A stretch of 64,000 nucleotides of DNA, from assembly GCA_001897295.1 (NCBI GenBank), contig MKSN01000001.1:1-64000 (forward strand), given 5' to 3'. Below the pieces are notes generated by a model. It had not been told where the DNA came from. It saw only the letters and a program-made list of their open reading frames with translations, and ran no database searches. This DNA comes from Candidatus Saccharibacteria bacterium 49-20 (lineage in GTDB: Bacteria; Patescibacteriota; Saccharimonadia; Saccharimonadales; Saccharimonadaceae). Made by a program: the position numbers and the translations under genes. Of this stretch, positions 3,506-60,404 are shown piece after piece; positions within the stretch are counted from its first letter, which is position 1; every line of letters starts with the position of its first letter.

Positions 3506-4055
3506 GCGAGAAATCAAGAAGCGAGCGGTATATCGATGGATCTGCTTCGTAGAGTGTCGATAACCTCCAGATGCGCATCCAGTCGCCTCGCCTGTCGTGG
3601 AGGTAGAAACCGATACTAGAATAACGATCGTGCTCCCAATCTTGGTGAAGAAGGTGAAGGTCCAGGGTGCGGCGTAATGCTTCGTGCGGCCCGGTGAGCC
3701 TTTTGATATCAATACGCGCGTCTAATTGTGAATGCATGGTATTTCTTGTGAATTCATATTGGTACTGGCCGAGGCGCGCGACAATTCGGTGCGCAAAGTC
3801 TTTCGCAAGTGTGCGGTCGATTGCGAAGAGAATGAAGTGCACCGCATTGGGCGTAATGGAGAAGGCGAGTAGGTCGATGCAAGACGCGAGTTGCCGATAC
3901 GCAGGTACATCCCCCAGGATAAAGCGCGGGCTCAAGAGGTCTTGTAGCTGGGAGATGATGAAGGCGCGTTCGCTATTGGAGTGCAGTAATGTAGCACCGC
4001 TTTGTGCAGCAAGAGTAACGTGACAATATCCGTAAGGTGACGATGCTTTTTCCAT
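3474..4055 (-). CDS. degenerate REP-associated (Y1/IS200-like) transposase-family protein
   Basis: 193 residues. I recognise the outline of the Y1 transposase / RAYT family: an N-terminal YCHVTLAAQSG..LLHSNSERAF (compare YHVT.RG..LF....R), then LLAFSITPNAVHFIL where active members have the metal-binding HUH in a PNHVHLL context, and near the C-terminus DRYSSIGFYL (compare Y.WSSY..Y). The first histidine of HUH is replaced (NAVHF), and no clear catalytic Tyr helix is seen, so DNA cleavage is unlikely. The frame is nevertheless fully open, suggesting a retained, possibly domesticated protein. It lies between ruvC and ruvA on the opposite strand and overlaps the ruvC end. Assignment rests on motif spacing read by eye. 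Confidence 0.6.
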   Translation of the reverse strand: MEKASSPYGYCHVTLAAQSGATLLHSNSERAFIISQLQDLLSPRFILGDVPAYRQLASCIDLLAFSITPNAVHFILFAIDRTLAKDFAHRIVARLGQYQYEFTRNTMHSQLDARIDIKRLTGPHEALRRTLDLHLLHQDWEHDRYSSIGFYLHDRRGDWMRIWRLSTLYEADPSIYRSLLDFSPIQLVAHPAS

Positions 4056-4151
4056 ATATTTACTTTAGAAAAAGAGTTTATGCTTCCAATGAATTCTGTG
4101 GTCAAAATGAAACAGTAGTCGTACGGGGGTGGATGTGCCATAATAGGAATA

Positions 4152-4721
4152 ATGATTGCGCATGTTTCTGGGGTAGTTGCCGAAAAATTTGGAAATTCTG
4201 TCATTGTTGATGTGCACGACGTAGGGTACGAAGTGCAAGTTGCAGCAGGTGATTTTGACAGTGCTTTGTTAAATGAGCCGGTTAAGTTTTATACCTATCA
4301 CCACATTCGTGAACAATCCCAAGAACTTTTTGGATTCTCGTCACTGGCTGCAAAAAAGCTATTTGAACTTCTTATTACTGTGCAGGGTGTGGGCCCTAAG
4401 GCGGCACTCTCGATTCTTTCCCTTGGCGATAGCGAGACAGTGCGAAACGGCATTGCAAATGGCGATAGCGGATTTGTCGCAAAAGCCAGCGGTGTTGGTA
4501 AGAAAATCGCCGAGCGTGTGGTGGTTGATCTTTCTGACAAGGTTGGCCTTGCGGTTACCGTTGCTCAGGCGAGCGGCGTGGCGCATATTCCGGCTGGTGA
4601 TGAGGCACTCGAGGCGCTGATGGCACTTGGCTACAATCTTAACGATGCAACTGTCGCCCTTGAATCAATTCCTAAAGACCTACCAACCGCAGAGCGGGTG
4701 ACACTTGCACTAAGGGGCTAA
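4152..4721 (+). CDS. ruvA: Holliday junction branch migration protein RuvA
   Basis: 189 residues, normal RuvA length. It starts [12 protein letters not shown], as RuvA does with its OB-fold, followed by two helix-hairpin-helix motifs ([16 protein letters not shown] and [14 protein letters not shown]) and the small C-terminal UBA-like domain (EALMALGYN) that contacts RuvB. RuvA tetramers bind the four-way junction and load the RuvB motor. A CATAAT box lies 7 nt before the ATG, so the transcript is probably leaderless. ruvB follows after 4 nt, forming an operon. Confidence 0.97.
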
Positions 4722-57299: not shown

Positions 57300-57509
57300 A
57301 TGGATAGCGATATTACTGGAATGTACCGACACTACAAGGGTAATGAATACGAAGTACTTGGCATTGGGCTTCATACCGAAACTGAAGAAAAACTCGTTGT
57401 GTACAAGGGCCTCTACGAGCCGTATCAAATTTGGGTCCGCCCGTATGATATGTTTTTTGAAACTGTCATCGTTGATGGCGTTGAAGTTAATCGCTTTCAA
57501 AAGCAGTAA
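57300..57509 (+). CDS. DUF1653 domain protein
   Basis: 69 residues. GMYRHYKGNEYEVLGIGLHTETEEKLVVYKGLYEPYQIWVRPYDMFFETVIVDGVEVNRF matches DUF1653 end to end, a small beta-rich cytoplasmic domain of unknown function. TATAAT ends 8 nt before the ATG, so the mRNA is probably leaderless. Confidence 0.93.
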   Translation: MDSDITGMYRHYKGNEYEVLGIGLHTETEEKLVVYKGLYEPYQIWVRPYDMFFETVIVDGVEVNRFQKQ

Positions 57510-57578: not shown

Positions 57579-58058
57579 ATGGAACAAAAACTGAAGATTC
57601 ATCCAGCTGTTGCGGCGCTAATAGTAATTGTACTTATCGGTATCGTGACGAGTGTGGTGATTATCGTCAATAGCGCAAATAACAATAAAGCAGTGACCGA
57701 TACGGTGCCAACCTCTCGGTCGGAAAATGGCACTACTACCGTTGATTCAACCGACACGTCGGACTACAAGGACGGTACTTACTCGGCGACAGGCTCGTAT
57801 CTTTCCCCTGGCGGGCGCGAGTCTGTCGCGCTGACGGTTACGATTAAGGACGGAGTGATTACCGATACGACGTTTGAGGCTGACGCGAGCGCCGCCGACT
57901 CTCGACAGTATCAGGCGCAATTTGCCGACAACTACAAAGCACTTGTAGTTGGCAAAAAAATTAACGGGCTGTCACTTTCACGCGTGGCGGGTTCTTCGCT
58001 TACTTCAAATGGATTTAATGATGCCCTTGATGAAATCCGAGACGACGCTCGCGCATAA
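57579..58058 (+). CDS. membrane-anchored FMN-binding domain protein (RnfG/NqrC-like)
   Basis: 159 residues: N-terminal transmembrane helix (about 10-31), a Ser/Thr-rich linker (about 40-65) and a small FMN_bind domain (about 66-155; YKDGTYSATGSYLSPGGRESVALTVTIKDGVITDTTFEA). The flavinylation motif appears as VAGSSLTSNGF; by alignment with the S-G-A-T-type motif of NqrC/RnfG, Ser140 is the likely site of covalent FMN. Topology puts the flavin outside the membrane. The next gene encodes ApbE, which attaches FMN, and overlaps this one; the third gene encodes a membrane reductase. Strong operon logic. Confidence 0.9.
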   Translation: MEQKLKIHPAVAALIVIVLIGIVTSVVIIVNSANNNKAVTDTVPTSRSENGTTTVDSTDTSDYKDGTYSATGSYLSPGGRESVALTVTIKDGVITDTTFEADASAADSRQYQAQFADNYKALVVGKKINGLSLSRVAGSSLTSNGFNDALDEIRDDARA

Positions 58059-58905
58059 TTGGCGCTTTGATGCACTTGGCACAAGCTGGGAAATTGCCTC
58101 AGGCGTGCCAATAGGCGACGCCACAAAGAAACGCGTCACAAAGCAGCTTGCATTGTTTGAACTTACCTTTTCTCGGTTTATTGGCGATTCGTTTGTGTCG
58201 GTCATTGCAGATAAACCCGGGAGCTATACTTTTCCGTCAGACGCCAAGGAAATCTTTTCATTGTATGAAGAACTCTACGAATTAACCGATGGAAAAGTCA
58301 CGCCCCTCGTAGGAGAGGCCCTGGCGGATGCGGGGTACGACGCGCGGTATTCGTTACAATCTAAGAAAGAAATTCACCCGGTTCCTCGCTATGGTGAGGT
58401 GGTCCAGCGTAAGGGGAATGTCATCACCACAAATCAGCCTGTGATGTTCGATGTTGGTGCAGTGGGCAAGGGCTATGCGGTTGATACAATTATCGAACTA
58501 TTAAAGGCTGATGGCTATAGCTCGTTCGTAGTCGATGCGAGCGGTGATATGCGCATTGTGGGTGATACTACGCAGCAAGTCGGGCTTGAAAATCCACACA
58601 ATTTTGAAGAAGTAATCGGAACGGTCGACCTACACAATAAGGCACTATGCGCTTCAGCGAGTAATCGTCGCAAGTGGGGTGAGTGGCATCACATTATCGA
58701 CCCCAATACGGCGTCGCCGACACACGAAATTATCGCCACTTGGGTGGTTGCCGATAGCGCGATGGTAGCGGATGGCTTGGCGACTGCATTGTTTTTTACT
58801 TCTCCCGAAACGCTTCGTGCAAAGTATACTTATGAGTATATGCGCATGCATGCGGATGGAAGCGTTGAATACTCAGATTATTTCGCGAAAGGTATTTTTG
58901 AATGA
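58030..58905 (+). CDS. apbE: FAD:protein FMN transferase ApbE
   Basis: 291 residues from the ATG at 58030; other in-frame ATGs at 58018 and 58021 cannot be excluded. Motifs: FDALGTSWEI, VMFDVGAVGKGYAVD (family D.GG.AKG.A.D), VDASGDMRIVGD, CASASNRRKWGEWHHIIDPNT and WVVADSAMVADGLATALFF with the Mg-binding Asp. ApbE moves FMN from FAD onto Thr/Ser of FMN_bind proteins. No signal peptide is obvious, unlike periplasmic lipoprotein ApbE, so flavinylation may occur before or during export. Its start lies inside the FMN-binding gene. Confidence 0.93.
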   Translation: MKSETTLAHNWRFDALGTSWEIASGVPIGDATKKRVTKQLALFELTFSRFIGDSFVSVIADKPGSYTFPSDAKEIFSLYEELYELTDGKVTPLVGEALADAGYDARYSLQSKKEIHPVPRYGEVVQRKGNVITTNQPVMFDVGAVGKGYAVDTIIELLKADGYSSFVVDASGDMRIVGDTTQQVGLENPHNFEEVIGTVDLHNKALCASASNRRKWGEWHHIIDPNTASPTHEIIATWVVADSAMVADGLATALFFTSPETLRAKYTYEYMRMHADGSVEYSDYFAKGIFE

Positions 58906-60404
58906 AGTTCTTAGAATATATTAATAAAATGTTGCGACCATTTTCGATGTATACTGGCATCGGGCTTGGGCTATCGGGCATTTTTCTAGTCGCGTTGCTG
59001 CTAAGCGCGCTAGGATATTTTAACTTCACCCCACTTGCGTTGGCACTGAGCGCATTGGTGCTCGTGGGTACAACGTATATCGCGAGCCTGCTCTGTGGGT
59101 GGCTTTTTGGCGTAAAAGCATACTGGGAATCCTCAATTATTACCGGGCTTATTTTGACGCTTATTTTTACACCATCAGCAGATATTTCGCAGCTGGTAGT
59201 TTTGGCTTTTGTCGGGTTTATTGCGGGTGTATCGAAATATATTCTCACGTGGCGCGGTCGGCATATCTTTAACCCCGCAGCCCTTGCGGCAGTGGTAATC
59301 TGCTTTACCGGCTTAGGTGCGGCGAGCTGGTGGGTGGCGACGCCAATTCTTACGCCTGTTGTTGCGTTGGTTGTGTTAATCTCGCTCTACCAAAGTAAAC
59401 GCTATTGGGTAGTGGGCACATTCCTGGCGATCACAATACCAGTCCTGTTAATTGAGTTTTTGATTTTTGGCGCGACTTTTGGCGAAAGCATATGGCTCCT
59501 GATGTCGTGGCCGATTCTTTTCCTTGCGGGTATTATGCTGACCGAACCGCTCACGCTACCGCCGCGCCGCTGGCAGATGTATGTTGTCGCTGCGGTGACT
59601 GCGGTTGCTTTCTTGCTTCCAATTAAGATTGGGGCCTTTCAGATGACACCGGCGCTCACACTTTTGATTGGTAACATTGTTGCGGCGGTATTTGCGGGCC
59701 GCTATGTGCTTACCTTGAAACTCAAAAAGCGCACCCAGCTCACACCTTCAACTGACGAGTTTGTATTTGAAACCGAAAAACCGTTTGTTTACGAGCCGGG
59801 TCAGTACATGGAACTCATGGTTCCACACAAGCGTGCTGATTTTCGCGGTATTCGTCGACGATTTAGTATTACTTCGCAGCCAAATACGAAGCAGATTTCA
59901 TTTGGTATCAAATTCTACGAGCCATCGAGTAGCTTTAAGCGCACGCTACGCACGCTTGGCGATGGTGCCACGATTCGTGCGACTGTTGTGGCGGGCGATT
60001 TCGTACTGCCAAAAGACGAAGCGAAGCAGTTGGTGTTTGTGGCAGGTGGCATAGGCATCACTCCATTTATAAGCCATTTACGCGCGATAAAAAAGAATAG
60101 CCGCGACATCACGCTGGTGTATGCGGTCGGTAGTGCACAAGAGTTGGCGTACGCCCAAGAGCTTACTGCATTTGGCATTGATGTGATTGTAGTTGCACCC
60201 GAAAAGCCAAAGGATTTACCGAACGATTGGAAGTACAGCCAAGGATCTCGAATTAACTACGATGAGCTCGCCGCGATGGTACCTGATGTTTCTGAGCGCT
60301 GGGCGTATATCTCTGGCCCGACACCATTTGTGCAATTTGGTAAAAAGCAACTCCGCAAGCTTGGTGCTCGCGGAGTCAAAACCGATTACTTTGCCGGCTA
60401 TTAA
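58902..60404 (+). CDS. RnfD/NqrB-like membrane domain fused to NAD(P)H-flavin reductase
   Basis: 500 residues in two halves. About 15-270: eight to ten transmembrane helices with ..KYILTWRGRHIFNPAALAAVV, the (G)KHIFNPAA-type motif of NqrB/RnfD; the flavinylation S-G-A-T motif of those subunits is not seen. About 275-500: ferredoxin-reductase-like domain with FAD motif RRRFSITSQP (RxxS), the pyridine-nucleotide loop LVFVAGGIGITPFISHL and YISGPTPFV. The 2Fe-2S domain of NqrF is absent. The layout suggests electron flow from NAD(P)H via FAD through the membrane to the FMN protein outside. Overlaps apbE by 4 nt. Confidence 0.88.
   Translation: MKFLEYINKMLRPFSMYTGIGLGLSGIFLVALLLSALGYFNFTPLALALSALVLVGTTYIASLLCGWLFGVKAYWESSIITGLILTLIFTPSADISQLVVLAFVGFIAGVSKYILTWRGRHIFNPAALAAVVICFTGLGAASWWVATPILTPVVALVVLISLYQSKRYWVVGTFLAITIPVLLIEFLIFGATFGESIWLLMSWPILFLAGIMLTEPLTLPPRRWQMYVVAAVTAVAFLLPIKIGAFQMTPALTLLIGNIVAAVFAGRYVLTLKLKKRTQLTPSTDEFVFETEKPFVYEPGQYMELMVPHKRADFRGIRRRFSITSQPNTKQISFGIKFYEPSSSFKRTLRTLGDGATIRATVVAGDFVLPKDEAKQLVFVAGGIGITPFISHLRAIKKNSRDITLVYAVGSAQELAYAQELTAFGIDVIVVAPEKPKDLPNDWKYSQGSRINYDELAAMVPDVSERWAYISGPTPFVQFGKKQLRKLGARGVKTDYFAGY

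Follow-up and report, generated by a model that had tools for sequence, protein, structure and literature searches.

Three overlapping genes on the forward strand of the Candidatus Saccharibacteria bacterium 49-20 genome, at positions 57579-60404 of the window (the whole 64,000-nucleotide stretch analysed, positions 1-64000 of a genome that consists of one contig of 904,897 bases and is 98.32% complete), encode in order a predicted flavin carrier, an ApbE-type flavin transferase and a fusion of an RnfD/NqrB-like membrane domain with an NqrF-like reductase domain. The cassette is most probably an Nqr/Rnf-like flavinylation system, a kind already described, in which an FMN_bind carrier, an ApbE and an NqrB/RnfD-NAD_binding_1 fusion likewise lie in one cluster in Actinobacteria and CPR bacteria; the RnfD-NqrF fusion in a minimal gene set was reported in 2021 (PMC8238504) and the system was modelled in 2024 from Ktedonobacter racemifer (PMC10979944). 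The preliminary description of this DNA had recognised the three genes and their order and had regarded such a fusion as unusual; the latter view is superseded by the available text of these two papers and by the occurrence of the fusion in roughly a quarter of the genomes sampled from the class. The AGSSLT motif of the carrier, the predicted cytosolic location of ApbE and the lack of a flavokinase in the genome are points which the available text of the two papers does not state, and the ApbE without an export signal, the non-canonical acceptor motif and the genome without flavokinase and FAD synthetase were also absent from the preliminary description. A literature search for Saccharibacteria with RnfD returned nothing relevant.

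The carrier (57579..58058, 159 amino acids) consists of an N-terminal membrane anchor, a Ser/Thr-rich linker and a C-terminal flavin-acceptor domain. The longest open reading frame for ApbE starts with a TTG at 57949, inside the carrier gene, and ends at 58905; the ATG at 58030 is the likely start (58030..58905, 291 amino acids), because relatives begin close to the domain itself. With this start the carrier and ApbE genes overlap by 29 bp, and the ApbE gene overlaps that of the fusion protein (58902..60404, 500 amino acids) by 4 bp (ATGA). A DUF1653 gene lies directly upstream of the cassette (57300-57509). A promoter scan gave 5 candidates, near the expectation from shuffled sequence (mean 3.9).

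The two halves of the fusion protein were assigned by profile and structure comparisons. The reductase half (residues 266-500, 59697..60401; NqrF/FNR-like) contains the motifs RRRFSIT (318-324) and GGIGITP (382-388) and no 2Fe-2S domain, as previously proposed, and the protein matches NAD_binding_1 (PF00175) above the cut-off (E 1.9e-8). The membrane half (residues 1-265, 58902..59696) gave a sub-threshold match to RnfD (PF03116) when searched as a single sequence (E 0.073); among 37 full-length relatives PF03116 was matched by 25 (best 1.7e-14) and NAD_binding_1 by all. As the best 60 of 186 matches of the whole-fusion profile to the PDB were all reductase-type chains, the membrane half was searched alone, and its profile matched RnfD of A. 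vinelandii (8ahx_D, E 1.3e-5), the alignment covering the last helices and, in a second, weak stretch, the FNPA motif. An AlphaFold model built on an alignment of 37 sequences from cassette loci had a mean pLDDT of 92.1. While its best Foldseek matches were to the reductase half, VIA-align superposed the model on the RnfD chains 9eri_D (Z 23.6, rmsd 5.2, 252 aligned, model residues 3-398) and 8ahx_D (Z 23.2, rmsd 4.0, 243 aligned, model residues 3-366), ranges which extend past residue 265 and may take in a small part of the second domain, and on NqrF chains (Z about 24). The RnfD/NqrB similarity previously suggested for the N-terminal half is thus borne out by relatives, profile and structure.

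Between the NPA motif and the next helices, a stretch of about 83 residues in RnfD (142 to 225) shrinks to about 13 positions (141 to 154) in the profile of the fusion family, which suggests that the RnfD flavin loop is largely absent, and no invariant Thr was found in the fusion-family columns checked in this region. By this comparison the fusion family lacks the covalent flavin site of RnfD, in agreement with the published Nqr/Rnf-like group, where the NqrB/RnfD flavinylation site, and with it the Thr that carries the covalent flavin, is not conserved according to the text available (PMC10979944).

In both a single-sequence search and a genome search no direct match of the carrier to Pfam FMN_bind (PF04205) was found; PF04205 matches 19 of 36 carrier relatives, and the profile built from the carrier family reaches the FMN-binding domain 8p2a with E 2.5e-12. 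In this alignment SGATYTS of 8p2a is paired with A137-G-S-S140-L-T-S of the carrier, within the motif VAGSSLTS (residues 136-143, 57984..58007), and therefore Ser140 (codon 57996-57998), which had been put forward as the flavin site, is the aligned acceptor position and the predicted site of FMN attachment. The reviewed ApbE target motif is D-x-x-[S/T]-G-A-[S/T] in the portion of the review available (PMC12052999). The corresponding S-R-V-A-G-S-S of the carrier agrees with it in the Gly and the final Ser only, having no Asp, no [S/T] before the Gly and no Ala. The carrier is the single detectable FMN_bind target in the genome.

The genome also has only one ApbE, which matches Pfam PF02424 with E 4.2e-42 (144.9 bits against a cut-off of 25.6). 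In hydropathy analysis no signal peptide or membrane helix was found in it, and even the longest possible N-terminus is free of a hydrophobic segment. A secretion signal or lipid anchor, which is typical of ApbE but not universal, is thus lacking, and membership of the family stands, as cytosolic ApbEs are known: in the accessible part of a review ApbE is described as usually periplasmic and anchored to the membrane, with some cytosolic exceptions listed (PMC12052999). One of these, in Klebsiella, also has no signal peptide, but its target is a cytosolic, soluble fumarate reductase according to the same text, whereas the target here is predicted to be exported. The longest possible N-termini of long-type ApbE relatives were likewise without signal peptide or transmembrane helix in nearly all cases inspected, namely the patescibacterial long-type loci and a sample of others, all of a length above that of the short-type ApbEs; the two highest hydropathy values (loci L140 and L148) probably arose artificially, where the frame read runs out of phase through the carrier gene. 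In Pseudolysinimonas kribbensis (locus L043, 4312-7389) ApbE and the RnfD-NqrF fusion lie in one open frame of 1025 amino acids, possibly a further gene fusion.

From these features we infer the following flavinylation, orientation and electron path. In the 500-amino-acid protein, NAD(P)H would reduce the FAD of the C-terminal domain, which lies in the cytosol; electrons would cross the membrane by way of the RnfD/NqrB-like domain, probably through a non-covalently bound flavin, and pass on the outer side to FMN covalently held on Ser140 of the anchored carrier, which would hand them on, in one direction only, to an external acceptor. That the carrier FMN may visit a site of the membrane subunit where flavin is bound non-covalently is proposed in the text available for the 2024 models (PMC10979944). 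ApbE would attach FMN, derived from FAD, to the carrier. Since ApbE has no export signal, this loading looks cytosolic and would most likely take place before or during export of the carrier.

Several points weigh against this mechanism. The acceptor motif departs from the canonical Asp, [S/T] and Ala; the membrane would separate ApbE from its carrier target; no obvious redox centre links the FAD of the reductase to the outer side, as the covalent flavin site of RnfD appears to be missing; and the genome has no flavokinase or FAD synthetase. The models PF01687 and PF06574 for the last two found no match in the genome, with positive controls in 10 of 14 reference genomes, and PF01687 was not found in 60 of 61 sampled genomes of the same family. 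Judging from this absence, FAD or FMN must either be taken up or be made by enzymes outside the reach of these models.

Because no recognised acceptor gene adjoins the cassette within the window, its physiological role rests on distant relatives. A VIT-family gene adjoins the copy in Mesorhizobium, and VIT1 is present in six published clusters in the part of the report available (PMC8238504), which together hint at iron. Our best guess, weakly held, is that the cassette may serve to reduce an external metal, or another small acceptor, for assimilation. The preliminary description had named redox disposal in a fermenting episymbiont as one possible role, besides the reduction of metal or host-derived acceptors. 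In redox disposal NAD+ would be regenerated as electrons leave for acceptors of host or mineral origin, in the fashion of extracellular electron transfer. The architecture does fit a one-way export of reducing equivalents, and the carrier has a weak similarity to PplA of Listeria (NCBIfam match, E 1e-5, far below the model cut-off). The Listeria flavin-based extracellular electron transfer system (PplA, FmnB) also pairs an ApbE-family transferase with an anchored extracytosolic FMN protein, but the membrane electron carrier here is the RnfD-NqrF fusion.

Other features of the genome and of the distribution make redox disposal rather unlikely, if possible. One region of the genome contains genes for an NDH-2-like protein (PF07992), COX1, COX2 with COX_ARM, COX3 and a UbiA-family, haem O synthase-like protein, which by sequence is a bo3-type chain. 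Since an NDH-2-like enzyme and a bo3-type oxidase are encoded, NADH can be removed with oxygen, fermentation need not be its sole outlet, and the 'fermenting' lifestyle appears doubtful. The lack of a recognised acceptor gene beside the cassette also argues against redox disposal, as does the occurrence of the cassette in Actinobacteria such as Arthrobacter and Microbacterium, which are mostly aerobic.

The respiratory region (398000-412000 of the contig) thus appears to give a 0.9-Mb genome an aerobic respiratory chain; cytochrome bo3 and NADH dehydrogenase are mentioned for soil Saccharibacteria in the accessible text of two papers (PMC6031116, PMC8407418). Elsewhere in the genome (159592-160524 of the contig; 3593-4525 of locus L209), a second NqrF/FNR-type reductase is fused to a YHS domain and adjoins a P-type metal ATPase and, as judged by eye, several small DUF305-like proteins, possibly a copper island.

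An arrangement in which the carrier domain and ApbE are both cytosolic, so that the cassette would act at the inside of the membrane and might be, for instance, a membrane-bound flavin reductase or oxidase, would accommodate an ApbE without signal peptide or membrane helix in the window and in nearly all relatives inspected, but is improbable on the features of the carriers. The alignment of actinobacterial carrier relatives contains a lipobox-like Cys in place of the N-terminal anchor segment, and for this reason their carrier domain is probably outside the membrane. In the window carrier a positively charged N-terminus is combined with a single hydrophobic segment (approximately residues 10-31, 57606..57671) and the Ser/Thr-rich linker, for which an N-in/C-out topology with the carrier domain outside is expected. 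The carrier is also extracytosolic in the published model, in the text available (PMC10979944).

The membrane domain (NqrB/RnfD), the NAD(P)H/FAD domain (NqrF) and the FMN_bind carrier (NqrC/RnfG) all have homologous counterparts in Na+-NQR and Rnf; unlike these complexes, the cassette has no 2Fe-2S domain on its reductase, most of the RnfD flavin loop is missing, and electron flow would be expected to be one-way rather than looped. That it is a reduced Nqr/Rnf complex conserving energy by coupling NADH oxidation to Na+ or H+ transport is highly improbable: its membrane half does share ancestry with RnfD/NqrB, which belongs to the core of complexes that pump ions, but no member of the RnfA/E-NqrD/E family (Rnf-Nqr, PF02508) was found in the 98% complete single-contig genome, with positive controls, in line with the earlier suggestion of electron transfer without other Rnf/Nqr subunits, the RnfD flavin site appears not to be conserved, and one-way flow is proposed for the Nqr/Rnf-like group in the available text of both papers (PMC8238504, PMC10979944).

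Full-length or nearly full-length fusions were found in about 59 of 245 genomes of the class, in about 60 of 380 genomes of the phylum Patescibacteria and, at E of at most 1e-40, in 7 of 396 Actinomycetota. The order carrier-ApbE-fusion on one strand was observed in 50 of 60 patescibacterial loci (L111-L170); the remaining loci comprised two with all three genes adjacent but the fusion inverted, two with ApbE a little apart, three with carrier and fusion only, two with the fusion alone and one which ends at a contig end. All three genes were present in 79 of 80 further loci, nearly all of them actinobacterial, the other one ending at a contig end. Conservation of the three genes together, as had been anticipated, is far beyond chance. 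In loci L127, L128 and L146 a carrier with a GAS motif accompanies the fusion, and ApbE was not found in the flanks fetched. Neighbour clustering, with a Pfam check of two members, identified a two-component system as recurrent beside the cassette in both groups; it was not found beside the window copy.

In the patescibacterial loci the acceptor motif tracked the ApbE class, defined as the length of ApbE matching the long-type profile: GSS occurred with long ApbE in 23 of 23 loci and GAT with short ApbE in 25 of 25, while GAS loci had a long ApbE in five cases, a short one in one and none in three, and one long locus had no motif found. The actinobacterial loci were mostly GSS with long ApbE (70), the minor classes there not being meaningful, as the motif pattern sometimes picked other glycine-rich stretches (e.g. 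L066, L090, L096). Since related sequences have common ancestry, the match between motif and ApbE class is read as showing co-inheritance, which is not in itself proof of specificity.

In a tree of 40 fusion sequences, displayed with a root at the other patescibacterial copies together with L202 (from the Actinomycetota sample) and L206 (Mesorhizobium), nine actinobacterial copies formed one clade (100/99) inside the clade of the window's family. Forcing the window-family copies together cost 51.9 log-likelihood units (AU p 0.0012, a value weakened by the choice of the tested group after an earlier tree). The ApbE tree had the same pattern, and window-family monophyly was not rejected by it alone (p 0.076). 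These trees suggest a transfer of the cassette from the symbionts to actinobacteria, the direction being suggested and not shown, because most of the actinobacterial copies had been collected by their similarity to the window protein. Among plasmids, one full-length fusion relative (Mesorhizobium) and one covering 89% were found. The latter lies on an unannotated 19-kb record of Pseudomonas sp. DR48 (NZ_CP081947.1, L205), where the fusion is 40% identical to that of the window; this record may be a contaminating actinobacterial contig.

As a tentative possibility, the GSS motif and the long, cytosolic ApbE may mark a subtype which arose in one patescibacterial family without recognisable enzymes for converting riboflavin to FMN and FAD, was passed to Actinobacteria, and has its FMN loaded inside the cell before export. 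Attachment of flavin inside the cell before export, if true, would differ from the usual periplasmic route. For the published system structural models but no biochemistry were found, and the present cassette places it in a small, almost complete genome that has a single ApbE and a single detectable FMN_bind target; cultivable actinobacterial relatives carry the cassette, in which deletion and assay are possible. Movement from the symbionts to actinobacteria, if true, would be in the less expected direction, from a symbiont family to the phylum which holds known hosts, and the sharing of the cassette between tiny symbiotic bacteria and actinobacteria, with ApbE apparently on the inner side of the membrane, looks new.
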